From: a virus
DNA length: 32,634 nucleotides
Reading direction: 5' to 3' (one strand)
Virus record (IMG/VR): IMGVR_UViG_3300033146_004127
Coordinates: 1-32,634 of that record
The translations under genes and the position numbers were made by a program. Shown here one piece after another: positions 9,400 to 30,209 of the stretch (position 1 is the stretch's first letter; every line of letters starts with the position of its first letter). A model generated the notes under the pieces. It ran no database searches. It had not been told where the DNA came from and was given only the letters and a program-made list of their open reading frames with translations.

Positions 9400-9750
9400 T
9401 TAATATAATTTCCTCCAACTATTCTGCCGAACATCAATATGAATGAACGTTTTATGTTTTCCAATACCGTATTTGTTATGATATTTCTTTTCTAAATATG
9501 CTGAAATGTCAGCAGTAGAAATGTTTTTAATCCGAATATCAGCAGCCATGCCCCTTATATGATAAGATTTATTTGCACCGCCTATTTTTTTATTATGCGT
9601 TTCACACCGGCAGCCAGAATTTATAACTAATGGATTGAGAAAGTAAATTCTTAAATCTTCCAAAACTGCTAATAATTCAGCATCCACAGCGGAAAAACCG
9701 CAGCCGCATTTACAAGCAAATTCTTTTCTTTTGAAATATTTTGATACCAT
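9400..9750 (-). CDS. Peptidase M15 endolysin (D-Ala-D-Ala carboxypeptidase type)
   Basis: The 116-residue protein is a short zinc peptidase of the M15 type that cuts peptidoglycan cross-links. Visible motifs are SYHIRGMAADIR (SxHxxGxAxD, first zinc ligands and catalytic region) near residue 71 and FIHIDVR (HxD) near 105. The N terminus carries KRKEFACKCGCG, as in phage M15 enzymes. I chose the ATG at 9750 because AAAAGGATG precedes it; earlier in-frame starts lie in poorly coding sequence. It has no signal peptide, so release needs the holin-like neighbours. Confidence 0.85.
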   Translation of the reverse strand: MVSKYFKRKEFACKCGCGFSAVDAELLAVLEDLRIYFLNPLVINSGCRCETHNKKIGGANKSYHIRGMAADIRIKNISTADISAYLEKKYHNKYGIGKHKTFIHIDVRQNSWRKLY

Positions 9751-9839
9751 TTTTTCATCCTTTTTACTCACTCTCAATTTATTTTTGACTATGTATTTCA
9801 ACATAATATTCATATTCAACCTATCTAACCTTAAAGCAT

Positions 9840-9876
9840 AAAAGCCCTGATGACTGTTTCCAGCGACAGGGCTTTT
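9840..9876. terminator. Bidirectional terminator-like hairpin
   Basis: A perfect 10-bp stem (AAAAGCCCTG paired with CAGGGCTTTT) with a 17-base loop, T-rich on leaving in either direction. It lies between the promoter at 9924-9953 and the endolysin start, so on the minus strand it may be a leader attenuator or RNA-processing hairpin rather than an end point. Confidence 0.6.
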
Positions 9877-9923
9877 GTATTTCGATATTATCAATGCCCC
9901 TTATGGGGAATGCAGTAAATTTC

Positions 9924-10867: not shown

Positions 10868-10979
10868 GATTAATTCCTTTATGTTTTATTATTTTAAATT
10901 TTCATTTTTGTAGAATTATTTTTCCAATAATAAATTAGTCTACCTATAATTTCCAATTTACAAACAATTTTACAAATAA

Positions 10980-11016
10980 CCCCTGCCATTTGCAGAAACA
11001 AGTGCAGGGGCTTTTT
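10980..11016 (+). terminator. Hairpin with T run
   Basis: A 7-bp CCCCTGC/GCAGGGG stem is followed on the plus strand by CTTTTTG. On the minus strand, where the nearby genes lie, the run after it is weak (TTATTT). It marks the gap between a broken gene and the lipoprotein gene. Confidence 0.5.
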
Positions 11017-11038
11017 GTTTCTAAGTTTCTCTATTTAA

Positions 11039-11224
11039 TTATCCTGCCTTCGTTGTTTTCACGTCTTCAACATTTTCAAGCAAATATTCAATATTGTCTT
11101 TGTCAAAAAACTCACCTGTGGTGAAATCTATACCTCGTAATGGTTTCCAAGAACCCTAAATTTTTGCTGCTCCATTTAATGCATCCTTTCTTGACTGTTG
11201 TTGCTGTTGAATTAAGATTGAATT
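11039..11224 (-). pseudogene. Remnant of a coding region with an internal stop
   Basis: Reading the minus strand gives about 20 residues (QQQQQSRKDALNGAAKI), an in-frame TAG, and then 39 coding-like residues (GSWKPLRGIDFTTGEFFDKD... NVEDVKTTKAG) ending at TAA. No start codon with a ribosome binding site is visible, and an in-frame TAG closes the upstream end. The second part has normal protein composition, which suggests a decayed or split gene. A sequencing error in the internal stop is possible. The original function is not recognised. Confidence 0.4.
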
Positions 11225-11310
11225 CTACCTTTCCGGAGATTTCGCAAACACAATGAGATTGCGAGTTTACGGGAAAGTGTATGCATCACTTTCTGGAAAA
11301 ATATAGGGGT

Positions 11311-11424
11311 TTAATTATTTATTATTGCGTCCTGTAAATTTTCATATGATGCTACAAACTTCCATTTACTATCAGATGATCGACTAAAATCATTCTCAAT
11401 TATGTATTTTTTCTCTCCTATCAT
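11311..11424 (-). CDS. 37-residue small protein
   Basis: An ATG at 11424, four bases after GGAG, opens a 37-codon frame (MIGEKKYIIENDFSRSSDSK, then WKFVASYENLQDAIINN). It overlaps the end of the preceding gene in another frame by 29 bases. The composition is protein-like, but the overlap and small size leave doubt. Confidence 0.4.
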   Translation of the reverse strand: MIGEKKYIIENDFSRSSDSKWKFVASYENLQDAIINN

Positions 11425-15931: not shown

Positions 15932-16840
15932 TTAAAAATCCTTATTCATTGTGTTCCAGGCTGCCTGGCTCATATCCCCGTTGCGTACCGCTTCCGGGAT
16001 TTCCTGACCGTTGTTTGTATAATTACTAACTGGCAATATTACATCTTCCCACCTCCGGTCTTTAAGCCAGCCCTGCGCCATTTTTGGAGTTAAGCCTTTT
16101 TGTAATATTCTTTCTCGTTCTTTTGCATATGCTTCTGCTCCCTTTAAAATGTCAGCAAGAAGATTATCGTCAATATCTTCAATTTTGTTCCAAACAGTCA
16201 AAGTTGATGCACGGCTTCTTTTGTCACCAAAAGCATCCCAGAACTTTTCAAATGATTCTAATTTATTTCTGTTAATCTTTTTTTGAGGTTGTTTCCTATT
16301 ATCATCATCATTCAAAACATTTTTACTTTCTGCAAATGAAATTTGCAGTATATTTTTTTCCTGTTCCTGTTCCTGTTCCTGCTCCTGTTCCTGCTCCTGT
16401 TCCTGCTCCTGTTCACTGTCTAACTTTTCGGAAGCAATTAGATAACCGTTAGCTAACTGCCCTCTAACCCATTCTGACGTTTTATAATATTCTGATAATA
16501 CTTTGCTTTTTGGTAACGCCTTTAAGCCATTAACACATGCAATGGCTGATTTTGCATTGACTGGTTTGTTATATTTAAACCAGTTCGGGAAACATATTAA
16601 TCTTGTCTTTGGACATCTCAATATTAACCTGTTTTCTAACAGTTCTCTAACAGTTAGTTTTACTTTAGACTTGTCATAACCTGTGTCAGCCTGGATATAT
16701 AAATCATCAAGAATGTATGCTCCCCAAGGTGTAGAATGATGGCATGTCAGCAAATAGAAGAACATGAATTTTGCATCATTTGATAATGCTCTAAATTTTT
16801 CATCATTCCAAAGTTTTGTTTCTATTTTTCGGTATGCCAT
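15932..16840 (-). CDS. Replication initiator-like protein with Glu-Gln repeat linker
   Basis: The 302-residue protein starts with a winged-helix-like domain (KIETKLWNDEKFRALSNDAK, FMFFYLLTCHHS, then DKSKVKLTVRELLENRLI) typical of phage replication initiators (DnaD/O-like N terminus). Next is an uninterrupted (EQ)n tract from about residue 143, then a C-terminal domain (FEKFWDAFGDKRSRASTL..WNKI, then AQGWLKDRRWED) as in phage replisome organisers. GGTGG precedes the ATG. It presumably binds the phage origin and recruits the loader gene product that follows. No iterons are obvious within the gene. Confidence 0.75.
   Translation of the reverse strand: MAYRKIETKLWNDEKFRALSNDAKFMFFYLLTCHHSTPWGAYILDDLYIQADTGYDKSKVKLTVRELLENRLILRCPKTRLICFPNWFKYNKPVNAKSAIACVNGLKALPKSKVLSEYYKTSEWVRGQLANGYLIASEKLDSEQEQEQEQEQEQEQEQEQEKNILQISFAESKNVLNDDDNRKQPQKKINRNKLESFEKFWDAFGDKRSRASTLTVWNKIEDIDDNLLADILKGAEAYAKERERILQKGLTPKMAQGWLKDRRWEDVILPVSNYTNNGQEIPEAVRNGDMSQAAWNTMNKDF
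16361..16414 (-). repeat. 6-bp tandem repeat encoding (Glu-Gln)n
   Basis: Nine perfect-length copies of CTGYTC lie inside the replication initiator gene. They encode alternating Glu-Gln. Copy number can change by slippage without breaking the frame, so the linker length may vary between relatives. Confidence 0.9.
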
Positions 16841-17180
16841 TTTTAAACCACCTATCAACTGTTGATGATTTCCTTGCATTGCAAGAGTCACATAGCGTTT
16901 GCAAATTATCAGGATGATTATTTCCGCCATTACGCAATGAAACAATATGATCTATAACCAGGCATGATTTTTTGTTCGTACTTAATGTGTATTTACCTGT
17001 GTAAACCTCCGGTATTTTTGCAAAATCTCCACAAATTTTACATTTAAAGTTGTCTCTTTTATAAACAAACCGTCGCACTGCCAAATCACAAGGCATTTTA
17101 TGTTTTATCCGCCTTTTAGGAGTGATAACTCTCCAAATTAAACTTTTCTCATCTTTCCATGTACCATATTTACATATCAT
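16803..17180 (-). CDS. HNH endonuclease
   Basis: The 125-residue protein contains a full HNH module: CKICGD (first zinc pair), LVIDHIVSLRNGGNNHPDN (DH with the N and H) and LQTLCDSCNARKSS (second zinc pair). The N-terminal part is basic (RRIKHKMPCDLAVRRFVYKRD). It could be a homing-type or packaging-associated nuclease; it lies among replication genes, not next to terminase. Its ATG overlaps the stop of the small regulator gene (ATGA), and its 3' end overlaps the replication gene by 38 bases. Confidence 0.85.
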   Translation of the reverse strand: MICKYGTWKDEKSLIWRVITPKRRIKHKMPCDLAVRRFVYKRDNFKCKICGDFAKIPEVYTGKYTLSTNKKSCLVIDHIVSLRNGGNNHPDNLQTLCDSCNARKSSTVDRWFKNGIPKNRNKTLE

Positions 17181-17431: not shown

Positions 17432-17629
17432 CTATACCCGTGTATTCCAAAGTAAATTAGCCAACAAATTTTTTGCTGTTTTCGTAGCAAAAAAAGAAGG
17501 GGCTTCTGCTAAACAAGATTTACAATAAACTTTAATGAAGCCAAAATCACCATTTGAACCAGGTTCTAAATCTTTTAAAAAACCTAACTTGTCACTCCCA
17601 CAAAAGGGGCACGGTTTTAATTCATTCAT
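17432..17629 (-). CDS. Lar-type restriction-alleviation-like zinc protein
   Basis: The 65-residue protein begins MNELKPCPFCGSDKLGF, the N-terminal zinc motif of the Lar family, followed by a second pair (VYCKSCLAEAP) and AKNLLANLLWNTRV at the end, where Lar-like proteins have A..A...WN.R. Lar of Rac prophage changes type I restriction activity; most phage members are untested. AAGGAGG precedes the ATG, and the gene overlaps the regulator stop by eight bases. Confidence 0.8.
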   Translation of the reverse strand: MNELKPCPFCGSDKLGFLKDLEPGSNGDFGFIKVYCKSCLAEAPSFFATKTAKNLLANLLWNTRV

Positions 17630-17789
17630 TGTCAGCCTCCTTATCCATTTCATTCTTAATCAAAGTTCTCATTATCACTGCGATACTTGTTTTTTTCTCC
17701 TTTGCCTTTTTTTTAATCCATGTTTTCATCTGAGAATGTACTCTGATTTCAGGCAGTTTCTTGTCAAAGTTTGTTTTGTAGATTTCCAT
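17622..17789 (-). CDS. Ribbon-helix-helix regulator at the divergent promoter
   Basis: The 55-residue protein shows LPEIRVHSQMKTWIKKKAKE, then KKTSIAVIMRTLIKNEMDKE: a short strand with basic residues, a helix, and a TS-capped second helix, as in Arc/CopG-type repressors that act as dimers. AAGGAC precedes the ATG. It is the first minus-strand gene from the divergent promoter pair at 17835-17867 and is the obvious candidate to control it. Longer in-frame extensions upstream cross the promoter and are not credible. Confidence 0.7.
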   Translation of the reverse strand: MEIYKTNFDKKLPEIRVHSQMKTWIKKKAKEKKTSIAVIMRTLIKNEMDKEADNE

Positions 17790-17834: not shown

Positions 17835-17863
17835 TTGACATATAAATTGATCTAAAATATAAG
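17835..17863 (+). promoter_or_regulatory. Plus-strand promoter of overlapping divergent pair
   Basis: TTGACA (17835-17840), 17 bases, TATAAG (17858-17863): near-perfect sigma70 type. It points to the 80-residue plus-strand gene starting at 17981. Its -35 and -10 boxes overlap the -10 and -35 of the opposite promoter. Confidence 0.75.
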
Positions 17864-17867
17864 TCAA
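17839..17867 (-). promoter_or_regulatory. Minus-strand promoter of overlapping divergent pair
   Basis: On the minus strand TTGACT (17867-17862), 17 bases, TATATG (17844-17839). It points to the ribbon-helix-helix regulator at 17789. Because it occupies the same 33 bases as the plus-strand promoter, polymerase can hold only one direction at a time. The whole site is an imperfect inverted repeat (TTGAC.TATA...TATA.GTCAA). Confidence 0.7.
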
Positions 17868-17903
17868 GAAGAATGAAGAATCTGGAACCGAATATAAATC
17901 AAT

Positions 17904-17933
17904 GACCATCTTGTTGGCGATAACAAAATGGTC
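17904..17933. promoter_or_regulatory. Operator-like inverted repeat in plus-strand leader
   Basis: GACCATCTTGTT / AACAAAATGGTC form 12-base arms with one mismatch around a 6-base centre (GGCGAT). It lies about 35 bases downstream of the expected plus-strand start site, so a protein bound here, or the RNA hairpin itself, could block the plus-strand gene. Confidence 0.55.
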
Positions 17934-17980
17934 AGGTTGCAATTTAATTTTTAAAATGGGTTGGGGAAATGTGAGGCAGT

Positions 17981-18223
17981 ATGGGAACGAATATTATAGA
18001 ATTAAAGGATGAATCTGGTTCCATCTATGGCTGGAGGAATCCAATTCAGGTATATTCCCGTGGAATATCAAATGGTAAAAAAACTTCCCGGCACTGGTTT
18101 ATGGATTTTAAAACAATTCCAGATGCAGTCCGGGCAATCAAAAAGAACCATAGAGATAAAATAACGTATAAAGGTAGAGTAGTTACTTATCAGCAAGTAG
18201 AGTTAGAGTGGGGTGAGGGGTGA
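17981..18223 (+). CDS. 80-residue protein, plus-strand side of the switch
   Basis: This is the clearest plus-strand gene in the window. The protein is small and basic (SIYGWRNPIQVYSRGISNGK, HWFMDFKTIPDAVRAIKKNH) with no obvious DNA-binding motif. The beta-rich start followed by a helix could be a small binding domain. GTGAGG lies four bases before the ATG. A strong promoter reads towards it and its leader has an operator-like hairpin. By position it is the counterpart of the regulator on the other strand, but the function is unknown. Confidence 0.6.
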   Translation: MGTNIIELKDESGSIYGWRNPIQVYSRGISNGKKTSRHWFMDFKTIPDAVRAIKKNHRDKITYKGRVVTYQQVELEWGEG

Positions 18224-18224
18224 A

Positions 18225-18323
18225 ATGAAATTATCAGATAGAGAAAAAACCAGGCTTGAAACCTTTCACACATATTACACCTCCGAGATTTTTAAAACTG
18301 TTTTTGGTTCTTCGTTATGGTGA
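18225..18323 (+). CDS. Possible 32-residue peptide
   Basis: An ATG at 18225, just after the stop of the 80-residue gene and behind GGGGTGA, opens a 32-codon frame (MKLSDREKTRLETFHTYYTS, then EIFKTVFGSSLW). It overlaps the 3' end of the convergent resolvase gene by 49 bases. The ribosome binding site supports it; the overlap and size do not. Confidence 0.35.
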   Translation: MKLSDREKTRLETFHTYYTSEIFKTVFGSSLW

Positions 18324-18793
18324 CAATATCTTTTTTCGCCAGACCAACAAACGATCTGGCAATCATCAACCCAGATCATTTCAATCTCTGGAGTTATGAT
18401 CGTGCCTTTTTTATTTTTAGTAGGTTTTTTATTGCTGCATCTATCGTTGACGAATTTCAGCATATTGTCGAAATCATTTTTCTTGACAATCCAATGAATA
18501 GGTGTGTTTTTTTTCAGGATGTGCGAGTTTTTCCCGGTCCCGAAATGACATTTAGGACGTTCAGCTATAAACTCATAATCAACTCTAATTGCACCTATGA
18601 ACGGCTTATGACTGGCTGATCTACATTGTAGCATGATAAGCTGTTCATATCGTTTTTCTTCCTTTGTCTGGCTGGAATATTGACGGACGTGTTTCCCCTT
18701 GCCAGTTATCTTATTTGCTTGTTTTGCGACCGGATGCCCTGGAATGCTAATTATCATATATATTGTCTTTGAGTCAGGCACAACATAAGCCAT
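18275..18793 (-). CDS. RusA-type Holliday junction resolvase-like protein
   Basis: The 172-residue protein has the RusA family pattern: ISIPGHPVAKQANKI near the N terminus, RVDYEFIAERPKCHFGTG in the middle, HWIVKKNDFDNMLKFVNDRC with the conserved D.DN segment, and MIWVDDCQIVCWSGEKRY with the paired aspartates. RusA-type enzymes cut Holliday junctions formed during phage recombination or replication. It is somewhat longer than RusA (120), with a long loop between motifs. The start is not certain; I used the ATG at 18793, and an ATG near the IISIPG segment is an alternative. It is the last gene of the early minus-strand run. Confidence 0.8.
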   Translation of the reverse strand: MAYVVPDSKTIYMIISIPGHPVAKQANKITGKGKHVRQYSSQTKEEKRYEQLIMLQCRSASHKPFIGAIRVDYEFIAERPKCHFGTGKNSHILKKNTPIHWIVKKNDFDNMLKFVNDRCSNKKPTKNKKGTIITPEIEMIWVDDCQIVCWSGEKRYCHHNEEPKTVLKISEV

Positions 18794-18809
18794 GCCTGAC
18801 AAATCAAAA

Positions 18810-19201: not shown

Positions 19202-19420
19202 TTATTTACTCCTTTCAAAAAAGTAATTTGGGGACAAATTGAATTTGTCCATCAGCATACATAATGTATCTGCATTTGGCTTGCTCCCATTAAGCCAACG
19301 ATCAACGGTTGGACGGGGTTTAGAAATTAAAGATGCGAACTGTGGGATTGACAAAGATAGGTCCATTAACATATCTTTCAGCCAGTTCTTATTCCAGGTT
19401 ATACTTGGTTTTTGTTTCAT
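19202..19420 (-). CDS. Cro/CI-type helix-turn-helix protein
   Basis: The 72-residue protein has a helix-turn-helix at about 21-44 (SLSIPQFASLISKPRPTVDR) and ends DKFNLSPNYFFERSK, the common C-terminal pattern of small XRE-family regulators. The ATG at 19420 has AGGAGG seven bases upstream; longer extensions would run into the terminator. It could be the Cro-like partner of the regulator at 19915-20148. Confidence 0.75.
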   Translation of the reverse strand: MKQKPSITWNKNWLKDMLMDLSLSIPQFASLISKPRPTVDRWLNGSKPNADTLCMLMDKFNLSPNYFFERSK

Positions 19421-19449: not shown

Positions 19450-19489
19450 AAAAAAAAAAGCCCGTCAACAACATAAGTTGTTGACGGGC
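19450..19489 (-). terminator. Strong intrinsic terminator
   Basis: A perfect 13-bp stem (GCCCGTCAACAAC / GTTGTTGACGGGC) with a 4-base loop is followed on the minus strand by ten T bases. It separates the 128-residue gene from the Cro-like gene, so genes further left need their own promoter or antitermination. Confidence 0.95.
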
Positions 19490-19525
19490 AATTAAAAAAT
19501 TAAAATGCTGAGAAAATAAATTGGA

Positions 19526-19912
19526 TTATTGAGAAACCCAACATTCTTTTTCAAAATCATAATAATCAGGTTGTTCATCTGGATTAAGAATTTCAAACCA
19601 TCTAAATAATGTTTGACGTAAAGGATCTTCGCCAAAAGGAGTAAAACTTCCTTTTGGTTGATGATAAGTATAGCTATACTTATCATGGCAACACCAAAAA
19701 CCACAAACGCTGTCGTGATTACTTAAGCAGCATTCAATAATCATATCAATAGGTGGATCAATAATAGTGTGAATGACAACTTGTTCATTTGGAAAATTAC
19801 ATGATCGTAAGTAAGTACCCGGTCTATCTATGTAAGGTACAGAATCAAAATCACATTTATATTTAGCTAAAACAGCTTCCCTTGCCACAGAATCGTTTAC
19901 TAAATGAATCAT
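19526..19912 (-). CDS. Cysteine-rich hypothetical protein
   Basis: The 128-residue acidic protein contains CNFPNEQVVIHTIIDPPIDM and a dense cysteine stretch (ECCLSNHDSVCGFWCCHDKY), suggesting a metal site, and has many aromatic residues near its end. AAAGGA precedes the ATG. It follows a regulator gene with a two-base gap and ends before the strong terminator, so it is probably co-expressed with the regulator. Family unknown. Confidence 0.6.
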   Translation of the reverse strand: MIHLVNDSVAREAVLAKYKCDFDSVPYIDRPGTYLRSCNFPNEQVVIHTIIDPPIDMIIECCLSNHDSVCGFWCCHDKYSYTYHQPKGSFTPFGEDPLRQTLFRWFEILNPDEQPDYYDFEKECWVSQ

Positions 19913-19914
19913 AT

Positions 19915-20148
19915 TTAATCCTTTCCAAAAAAGTAGTTAGGCGTAACTTTCAAAACTGCTGCGATCTTTCCCAAAGTATCTGTGTTAATATTCTTCTTCC
20001 TCCCGGTTTCAATCCGGGATAAATTCCCGGCTGTTGTGCTGGCTAAATCTGCCAATTTTTCTAGGCTTAATTTTTGCTGTAACCGTCTCGGCTTTAGACG
20101 GCCGGGTTTAAATTCAAACGGAATTGTTTTTGCAGTGTTTCGGTTCAT
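19915..20148 (-). CDS. XRE-family helix-turn-helix regulator
   Basis: The 77-residue protein has a full XRE helix-turn-helix: RLQQKLSLEKLADLASTTAG, then NLSRIETGRKKN, ending LGKIAAVLKVTPNYFFGKD. AAGGAGA precedes the ATG. It has no peptidase or dimerisation domain, so it is Cro-like or a small repressor. The neighbouring gene after the terminator encodes a related regulator with the same NYFF ending. Confidence 0.8.
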   Translation of the reverse strand: MNRNTAKTIPFEFKPGRLKPRRLQQKLSLEKLADLASTTAGNLSRIETGRKKNINTDTLGKIAAVLKVTPNYFFGKD

Positions 20149-28635: not shown

Positions 28636-28957
28636 TAGCCCTAACAAAGCATGTGTTTTTTAACATTACAAATGTTTGCACACTCATACGGATTGTAGAT
28701 TTAAACGTGCTTTTTTTTTATTTTATTTCTGGTTTTTAAAAAAATAAGTGCAGATAGTGATATATAAATACTGACAGTTAGTACGGGGCTGTTTCCGTGC
28801 TTACTGTCAGTTTATACATTGCTATCTGTGCTTATTTTTTTTAAAAGCGGGGTTTGAAAAAAAATAAAAAAACTGTGCGTTTAAATCGTACAAGCCGTTG
28901 AGTGTGGTCTTTAGCAAACATTTGTAATGTTAAAAAATACATGCTATAATTGGGCTA
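28636..28957. repeat. Giant 322-bp hairpin with loop GGCTGTTT
   Basis: Two arms of about 150 bases pair over their whole length with scattered mismatches and small bulges. The base is TAGCCC / GGGCTA, the next 30 bases (from AGCATGT) pair with one mismatch, the middle is A/T-rich, and the tip is GACAGT...ACGG around loop GGCTGTTT (28787-28794). No frame of useful length lies within it. If transcribed it would form a very long double-stranded RNA. Confidence 0.9.
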
Positions 28958-29001
28958 CTGTGTGTGTGAGACTCCTAACTTTTGAGCGATAGTGAGGACA
29001 T

Positions 29002-29043
29002 ACAGTAACTTATTGCGGGGCTGTTTCCGCAATTAGTTACTGT
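29002..29043. repeat. Hairpin with loop GGCTGTTT
   Basis: ACAGTAACT / AGTTACTGT and ATTGCGG / CCGCAAT around loop GGCTGTTT (29019-29026), with one mismatch between the two stems. Confidence 0.85.
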
Positions 29044-29064
29044 GTACGCAGTGGTAGCGACCTT

Positions 29065-29141
29065 ACAGCACATTAAAAGCAAATGTAGCAAAAGGGCGGC
29101 TGTTTGCCCTTTTGTGTAGTGCAGCTTCAATCAAGTGCTGT
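29065..29141. repeat. Hairpin with loop GGCTGTTT and outer stem
   Basis: The inner stem CAAAAGGGC / GCCCTTTTG is perfect, with loop GGCTGTTT (29098-29105). An outer ACAGCAC / GTGCTGT stem closes the unit. Confidence 0.8.
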
Positions 29142-29160
29142 TCCTTTGTTTATTGGGTGC

Positions 29161-29176
29161 TATACAGAAGGCATTG
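29161..29176. repeat. TATACAGAAGGCATTG repeat, copy 2
   Basis: Identical to the first 16 bases of copy 1. Here it runs directly into the next octaloop hairpin. Confidence 0.75.
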
Positions 29177-29222
29177 TTTTTATCATTTTGCTGAGGTTTT
29201 TTTCAGCAAGATGATAAAAACA
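29175..29222. repeat. Hairpin with loop GGTTTTTT
   Basis: TGTTTTTATCAT / ATGATAAAAACA and TTGCTGA / TCAGCAA around loop GGTTTTTT (29195-29202), with one G-T pair between the stems. Confidence 0.85.
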
Positions 29223-29234
29223 TCAAATAGATTT

Positions 29235-29266
29235 AACACGATGCACGGCTTTTTGTGCATGGTGTT
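29235..29266. repeat. Hairpin with loop GGCTTTTT
   Basis: AACACGATGCAC / GTGCATGGTGTT with one mismatch, around loop GGCTTTTT (29247-29254). Confidence 0.85.
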
Positions 29267-29345
29267 TTTCAAAAGTAATGCAATGCTATGCTTTTTTATA
29301 GTGGCTGTTGGCAGTGTGTGGAGTGCGCAGCACGTCTACAAGTGT

Positions 29346-29381
29346 GTTACTATACAGAAGGCATTGGCAGTTTGTAGTAAC
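29346..29381. repeat. TATACAGAAGGCATTG repeat, copy 3, in a hairpin
   Basis: TATACAGAAGGCATTG plus GCAGTTT (29351-29373), enclosed by GTTACTA / TAGTAAC. The same core sits in a different stem at copy 1. Confidence 0.75.
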
Positions 29382-29449
29382 GAGCGGAACCCCTCCAAAT
29401 CAGTGTGAAGCAGTAGCAACGAGCGGAACCCCTCCAAATCAGTGTGAAG
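29379..29449. repeat. Two tandem AACGAGCGGAACCCCTCC repeats
   Basis: Two identical 32-base copies (29379-29410 and 29418-29449), starting AACGAGCGGAACCCCTCC and ending CAAATCAGTGTGAAG without that order being broken, with a period of 39. A third partial copy lies at 29723-29743. Confidence 0.85.
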
Positions 29450-29465
29450 TGTTGATTACTGGTAA

Positions 29466-29515
29466 AGTGCCGGGGGAAATGCGCCCGTTGCATAAAGACT
29501 ACCTCCCCCGGCACT
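29466..29515. repeat. G/C-tract hairpin module A
   Basis: Perfect 12-bp stem AGTGCCGGGGGA / TCCCCCGGCACT with a 26-base loop. It is followed at 29516 by CGATGTCACGAATGTGCCGAG minus its last base, nearly the same as after module B. Confidence 0.8.
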
Positions 29516-29623
29516 CGATGTCACGAATGTGCCGAGCTTCGGCGCTATCTCTGCCACTGACCAAGTTGGGGGCAAGCGCTGTAGAATCAAGGTGGCACTG
29601 TGGCAGCGAGTGGGTAATACGTC

Positions 29624-29639
29624 TATACAGGAGGCATTG
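29624..29639. repeat. TATACAGGAGGCATTG repeat, copy 4
   Basis: One base differs from the other copies (A to G at position 8). No enclosing stem is obvious. Confidence 0.65.
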
Positions 29640-29722
29640 CACTTTGAAATGCTTAATAGTCGCGACTTAGTTAAGAAATACTTTGGAGAGCTCCTACACG
29701 AATCGTCGAGAAGAATTGTTAG

Positions 29723-29743
29723 GAGCGGAACCCCTCCAAATCA
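29723..29743. repeat. Third GAGCGGAACCCCTCC copy
   Basis: Matches the first part of the tandem repeats at 29379-29449, then diverges. Confidence 0.75.
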
Positions 29744-29755
29744 AGTTTAAATATA

Positions 29756-29804
29756 GCCGGGGGGGGATGACAGGCGATAGATGCAAGAGAACCCCCCCCT
29801 CGGC
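29756..29804. repeat. G/C-tract hairpin module B
   Basis: GCCG plus seven G pairs with seven C plus CGGC, one bulged T, loop of about 25 bases. It is followed at 29807 by CGATGCCACGAAGTGGCGAG, a near-copy of the sequence after module A, so A and B are diverged copies of one unit. Confidence 0.8.
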
Positions 29805-29826
29805 GTCGATGCCACGAAGTGGCGAG

Positions 29827-30054
29827 TCTCGTTAACGCTAGATAATGACCGTAGGCGATAATGGAGCTAACTTGAAACATGGCAATACTAAATTGAAGCT
29901 AACTTAAAATGTGGTAACTATAATCAGGTCTTTGTGGTGGAGAATCTTGGTAGCGGAATCCTTCGATTCAAGCTAAAATGTACATGCTAAGTGATGCAAG
30001 GCGTGTCAATGGCAAGATAGTGAATGGAAGCTCTTGAACCAATGTAAAACAATT
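29827..30054. other. Gene-free stretch with a short tandem duplication
   Basis: No frame with start signals is seen on either strand. It contains two diverged copies of AGCTAACTTGAAACATGG (29865 and 29897, period 32) and the sequence TAGCGGAATCC near 29952, reminiscent of the AGCGGAAC repeats. I see no strong hairpin. Confidence 0.5.
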
Positions 30055-30088
30055 GTTGCCTTGACTACCAACGCAAGGTGAGTTTCTT
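30055..30088. repeat. Boundary direct repeat, right copy
   Basis: Counterpart of 27755-27788 (GTTGCCTTGACTACCAACGC then AAGGTGAGTTTCTTT). It lies about 120 bases from the end of the lysozyme gene and marks the right edge of the hairpin region. Confidence 0.65.
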
Positions 30089-30209
30089 TACATTTCCCCA
30101 AAATATAAACATGAAGGAAAATATACAGGGGCTAACTAAAAAATATGACAAAAAGACCAATAACAATAAACAGAAGTAGAGACAAGGCATGCCTCGTCTC
30201 CACAACCAA

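Follow-up and report, generated by a model that had tools for sequence, protein, structure and literature searches.

The window analyzed here, that is, the whole stretch of DNA at its full length of 32,634 bases (G+C content, 36.6%), is IMG/VR virus record IMGVR_UViG_3300033146_004127, in which the minus strand carries nearly all genes. Head and packaging genes (major head protein, protease, portal, and terminase) lie at the left end, followed by an early region with SSB, a DnaD-like loader, HNH, RusA, and RecT. Terminase identity to named phages was at most 54.1% among the matches listed, the best being Escherichia phage PhiKM. Beyond connector and neck proteins, no tail genes were recognized among the ORFs scanned, and the record is therefore probably incomplete. 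Scans of the window for Rfam families and tRNAs gave no match. Two small HTH ORFs were found (19202-19420 [PF01381] and 19915-20148), and the unit upstream of the former ends at a very strong minus-strand terminator (19459-19490) with a GC-rich stem and at least nine T. Two different cell wall enzymes are encoded far apart, an endolysin/peptidase-like ORF (9400-9894; phrog_894) and a phage lysozyme (30210-30620; PF00959). Between 26830 and 29260, largely in long gaps without clear genes, the plus strand carries an array of hairpins with differing stems and a near-constant 8-nt loop, GGCT[GT]TTT; 7 of the 12 plus-strand octamers have stems of 6 to 18 pairs, and resampled sequence gave a mean of 0.07 such loops with stems of 4 or more. 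A 1.56-kb stretch (28648-30209) contains no convincing gene, which is unusual for a phage. The features at and around the locus discussed below are collected in Table 1.

Table 1. Genes and sequence features at and near the divergent gap, in window coordinates
Feature	Coordinates	Strand	Basis
DnaD-like helicase loader	15932-16945	-	phrog_1701, E 6.9e-29
HNH endonuclease	16803-17180	-	PF01844, E 1e-9
Second RHH-like ORF, 52 aa	17177-17335	-	Codon score 0.461; alignment to 55-aa ORF
Lar-like (restriction alleviation) protein, 73 aa	17432-17653	-	PF14354, E 1.2e-7 (above cut-off)
RHH-like protein, 55 aa, presumed regulator	17622-17789	-	Weak family matches; codon score 0.303
33-nt near-palindrome TTGACATATA-N13-TATAAGTCAA, containing both promoter-like sites	17835-17867		Symmetry count
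Rightward promoter-like site, TTGACA (17835-17840)-N17-TATAAG (17858-17863)	17835-17863	+	Predicted start ~17870
Leftward promoter-like site, TTGACT (17867-17862)-N17-TATATG (17844-17839)	17839-17867	-	Predicted start ~17832
Rival leftward promoter-like site, TCGCCA-N18-TATATT, -35 in inverted repeat	17891-17920	-	Consensus scan, weight matrix
Inverted repeat, 13-nt arms, 12 matched, 6 nt between	17903-17934		Repeat search
Rival rightward promoter-like site, TGGTCA-N17-TAAAAT, -35 in inverted repeat	17929-17957	+	Consensus scan, weight matrix
80-aa orphan protein, putative product of the rightward transcript	17981-18223	+	ORF call, codon score, gap length test
RusA-like resolvase gene	18275-18802	-	PF05866, E 1.3e-10

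The original prediction placed a ribbon-helix-helix (RHH) regulator on the minus side of the gap. An ORF is present there, with an AAAGGA ribosome-site-like stretch, and its end is overlapped by the Lar-like ORF; its assignment to the RHH fold is plausible but weakly supported. The 55-aa sequence gave weak matches to Arc-like PHROGs (E 0.01-0.02; best E 0.0097) and none in Pfam above the cut-off, and a single-sequence AlphaFold model consisted of one long helix. The second RHH-like ORF is 33% identical to it when the two are aligned, BLASTP between them returned no alignment, and a two-sequence profile built from both matched AvtR in the PDB (E 0.0015). The codon scores support both ORFs as genes.

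The 80-residue ORF predicted on the plus side was confirmed; it is convergent with the RusA-like gene. Its product had no match in PHROGs, Pfam, NCBIfam, or PADLOC; tblastn found none in 50,697 phage records or 72,556 plasmids, pattern scans of IMG/VR and of genome contigs gave no match, and it was found in none of 23 other records in which it was sought. Its codon score (0.113) ranks third among 107 plus-strand ORFs, a test that is not decisive because a higher score (0.15) belongs to an ORF that overlaps it in a different frame (18009-18164). On resampling the 485-nt gap, an ORF reached 80 aa in 49 of 5,000 trials (about 1%). The mean pLDDT of a single-sequence AlphaFold model was 54. Searches with the 80-aa ORF, the RHH-like ORF, RusA, DnaD, terminase, and RecT returned no ortholog of the locus, nor did tblastn of the RHH-like ORF and RusA against phages. 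Relatives of DnaD were kept from 80 loci (best, 52%) and of terminase from 19 (best, 57%). When 15 window ORFs were compared by tblastn with 108 loci, the RHH-like and 80-aa ORFs were unmatched among the matches listed.

The original prediction had described two promoters sharing 33 bases between these divergent genes. All four hexamers occur where it placed them, on opposite strands of the same DNA, as two sigma-70-type sites with near-consensus -35 boxes and exact 17-base spacers. The two were, however, called face-to-face, and the sites are divergent: the predicted starts lie about 38 bp apart, with the transcripts running away from each other. Nor does each -35 cover the opposite -10; the overlap is two bases per side (17839-17840 and 17862-17863). 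The shared stretch is strongly symmetric, with 22 of its 33 positions equal to its own reverse complement. Both -10 hexamers lack the T at their sixth position (-7) and were therefore missed by a consensus scan requiring A at -11 and T at -7.

Ranks and nested-pair counts were obtained with a promoter weight matrix of base frequencies. Among all sites in the window, the plus-strand site ranked 11th (score, 10.20) and the minus-strand site 173rd (7.15). An equally good nested pair arose in 0.16% of 5,000 shuffles of the 191-nt gap; when the whole window was shuffled 100 times, 12 of the shuffles contained one (mean, 0.13 pairs). The real window holds three nested pairs (10921-10956, 17835-17867, and 19658-19691), with the lowest score sum at 17835-17867, and the third lies inside an ORF (19526-19912); with three such pairs in one window and one of them within a gene, nested pairs evidently also arise without an obvious role. 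The first is a divergent pair (10921-10950 and 10956-10927) in a 528-nt gap (10868-11395), with a score sum slightly above that of the pair studied here. With both strands counted, the window has three occurrences of the strict motif TTGAC[AT]-N16-18-TATA[AT]N, and two of them make up the 17835-17867 pair. The pair is thus unusual at its location, yet such pairs are no proof of function.

The same element was sought elsewhere by scanning IMG/VR for the symmetric pattern TTGACWTATA-N13-TATAWGTCAA, which was present in at least 119 stretches. Among the matches listed, 113 of 119 are flanked on both sides by an ATG ORF of at least 60 aa that starts within 150 nt and runs outward; the other 6 are flanked in this way on one side. 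For a junction test (outward ORFs of 50 aa or more required; 12 matches less than 400 nt from a locus end dropped), random positions served as the control: all 107 testable matches listed lie between outward ORFs, as do 10.3% of 4,280 random positions in the same loci. One junction dominates, since 107 of the 113 two-sided loci listed place the element between an SNF2-type helicase and an ~119-aa member of the Pam3 gp32 family; among named phages, Pelagibacter phage HTVC027P has its nearest relative (49% identity). The matches, at least 119 in number, thus represent few independent events. Outside this junction, all seven loci listed are divergent (background, 10.7% of 2,800) and comprise about four junction types: helicase/Pam3 gp33-like, terminase-small-subunit-like/78 aa, and two of unknown genes. 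The window's own element likewise lies between outward ORFs; because 11.3% of 4,000 random window positions do as well, the test alone is weak for the window. In 14 records examined for copy number, 13 held one copy and one held a second with two mismatches; the reversed pattern, used as a control, gave no match in these 14 records.

Orthologous junctions in two other phages differ in what is kept. In phage 023Pt_psg01, where the gp32-like protein is 45.5% identical, each strand carries an outward TTGACA with TATA-like boxes 16 to 17 bases behind it and without an exact palindrome, as expected if the promoter boxes are the conserved feature. In Pelagibacter phage HTVC027P, TATATAAT is present without a TTGACA pair. 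Throughout loci L110-L228 the divergent SNF2 helicase/Pam3 gp32-like junction is marked by TTGACATATA-N13-TATATGTCAA, and in most of them 3 or 6 nt separate the element from the Pam3 gp32-like start codon, so that the transcript of this gene would be nearly leaderless. These phages, related to pelagiphage HTVC027P, thus share with the window the 33-nt pattern between outward genes, whereas the genes are different, no regulator gene was recognized beside the element, and the start codons are mostly 3 to 21 nt away, compared with 45 and 113 nt in the window. Dominated as the matches listed are by one junction, we take these observations as evidence that the symmetric module is a genuine promoter arrangement and that several phages use it.

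The recurrence of the symmetric element between divergent genes of other phages is the main reason for regarding the overlapping divergent promoter pair at 17835-17867 as likely to be functional. RNA polymerase would fit only one orientation of the two sigma-70-type promoters at a time, and the strong plus-strand -35 would be consistent with competition for polymerase. The predicted leftward transcript would encode the RHH-like regulator, the Lar-like protein, the second RHH-like protein, the HNH nuclease, and the DnaD-like loader; the rightward one would carry the small gene at 17981, an orphan that would form a moron-like unit by itself, opposed to the leftward early operon. The RHH-like protein would most probably bind in the 191-nt gap and repress its own promoter and, because the promoter sites overlap, the divergent promoter as well. 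Taken whole (overlapping promoters, mutual exclusion, and RHH-like control), this is the best explanation we can offer, and we hold it with about even confidence. A bolder version, in which the two RHH paralogues regulate the 33-bp bidirectional site, polymerase orientation chooses between the replication operon and the orphan gene, and the module was adopted independently at junctions of unrelated AT-rich phages, seems to us quite unlikely. If the pair works, it would be a compact means for two opposed sets of phage genes to compete for one polymerase. Since one symmetric promoter-like module marks divergent junctions across many AT-rich phage records, such junctions are easy to locate, and polymerase orientation as a regulatory device can be tested there.

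The inverted repeat at 17903-17934 had been put forward as an operator-like 12-base repeat. Its 12 matched pairs are there, but an operator role was not singled out by the half-site search: in the window, ATATAWGTCAA and TGACCATNTTGTT were not enriched (34 against 38 expected and 64 against 56, respectively). Repeats of like quality are common in the window (19 rows and 11 distinct hairpins, compared with 0.13 expected), and the leader at 17870-18000 folded no better than shuffles (z, 0.21). The repeat could be a hairpin of the rightward leader, a weak minus-strand terminator-like site, or an operator. Its exact arms occur in two IMG/VR records (L229 and L230) in unrelated contexts. When the 32-mer from L230 was searched, 73 phage and 99 plasmid records matched it in part, mostly weakly, and eight that were inspected did not share a gene context (behind ibpB, twice within dinD, next to a tRNA, and elsewhere). 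We regard these as chance hairpins; by a rough estimate, 13-bp hairpins of such composition would yield about two exact matches in a collection of that kind.

That the repeat terminates leftward transcription coming from the direction of RusA, ahead of the next leftward promoter, and is not an operator is a tentative reading, somewhat short of an even chance; it bears on the repeat alone and does not conflict with the promoter pair. The consensus scan lists 17903-17934 as terminator-like on the minus strand, where the RNA fold (-15.6 kcal/mol) is followed by TTGATTTATATT, and a clear terminator of like kind separates leftward units at 19459-19490. The T-tract is weak, though, with three T in the first five bases against nine after 19459, and the arm copies in L229 and L230, in unrelated contexts and at a number near that roughly estimated for chance hairpins, also speak against it. 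Alternatively, the repeat could be the operator of a different start region, with back-to-back promoters at 17891-17957 whose -35 boxes fall within it and the 33-mer reduced to a by-product or an upstream binding site. We consider this unlikely, even though the consensus scan described above lists these sites (17929-17957 on the plus strand and 17920-17891 on the minus strand) and not the 17835-17867 pair, their scores are 8.21 and 8.13 (ranks, 70 and 73) against 10.20 and 7.15 for that pair, and the repeat, far above chance, sits where an operator would block both. The -35 boxes of these sites are poor, consensus-scan sites in general are mostly noise because 67 were found compared with 51 in shuffles, and it is the 33-mer, not the 17891-17957 layout, that recurs at junctions elsewhere.

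It is about equally improbable, in our judgment, that the palindrome is a protein-binding site, for a repressor or for replication, that resembles promoters only through AT-richness and symmetry. The match of 22 of 33 positions to the reverse complement would suit such a site, and other loci that were inspected carry the same arms on both sides without the -7 T, which is unexpected under selection for strong promoters alone; part of that regularity is ascertainment, because the search pattern fixes those positions. The arm centers, 23 bp apart, would suit -35/-10 spacing more than a simple dimer site, and at the 023Pt_psg01 junction the boxes are kept and the palindromy is not.

The locus had also been proposed as a lysis-lysogeny decision point. 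Arc and Mnt of phage P22 are both RHH proteins, and its immI region uses a layout related to overlapping divergent promoters. By analogy, the RHH-like protein would maintain dormancy through repression of the rightward gene, a reading suggested by a regulator-like ORF facing an orphan gene across overlapping promoters and by the presence of two RHH-like ORFs where P22 has its two small repressors. We regard a switch of this kind as very improbable, and the proposal found no support in the analysis. No integrase, transposase, CI-type repressor, or antirepressor was recognized among the ORFs scanned, including every minus-strand ORF above 200 aa, an absence that is no proof in a record that is probably incomplete. 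From the RHH side, transcription would continue into replication genes, in a leftward operon whose Lar-like protein, HNH nuclease, and DnaD-like loader look like ordinary early genes, and the 80-aa orphan, which matches nothing in PHROGs, Pfam, NCBIfam, or PADLOC, gives no sign of being an antirepressor of the immI type.

The overlapping divergent pair can be compared with three described systems. The immunity I region of P22, with the genes arc, mnt, and ant (PMC2629481), is similar in that an accessory control region of the phage encodes small repressors, for which the RHH-like ORFs are the candidates in the window; as described there it has an antirepressor, whereas none was found among the ORFs scanned in the window. 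Bidirectional promoters of Escherichia coli and Salmonella, in the accounts cited (PMC12825309 and PMC10268837), share one -10 and have starts 7 to 25 bp apart, most often 18, and in E. coli polymerase competition is reported only where one direction is made strong or activated; the window's pair falls outside that class, with separate -10s and predicted starts about 38 bp apart. Closest is Pr/Pc of pLS20 from Bacillus subtilis, for which starts, operators, looping, and the regulator RcoLS20 are described and the authors favor a -10/-35 of one promoter coinciding with the -35/-10 of the other (PMC4207663). As far as that account goes, pLS20 and, by prediction, the window both have overlapping divergent promoters, the -35 and -10 of each falling on or next to the -10 and -35 of the other, a regulator gene (a candidate in the window) on one side, and a leftward start that lies shortly beyond the rightward -35 (6 bp in pLS20 and a predicted ~3 bp in the window). 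The pLS20 system was measured and has RcoLS20, while the phage pair is a sequence-level prediction and its candidate regulator is RHH-like. The arrangement in the window is indeed built unlike that of lambda, as had been claimed, yet it is not new: overlapping divergent promoters as a means of gene competition are already known, and pLS20 Pr/Pc, with its related layout, is a published precedent.
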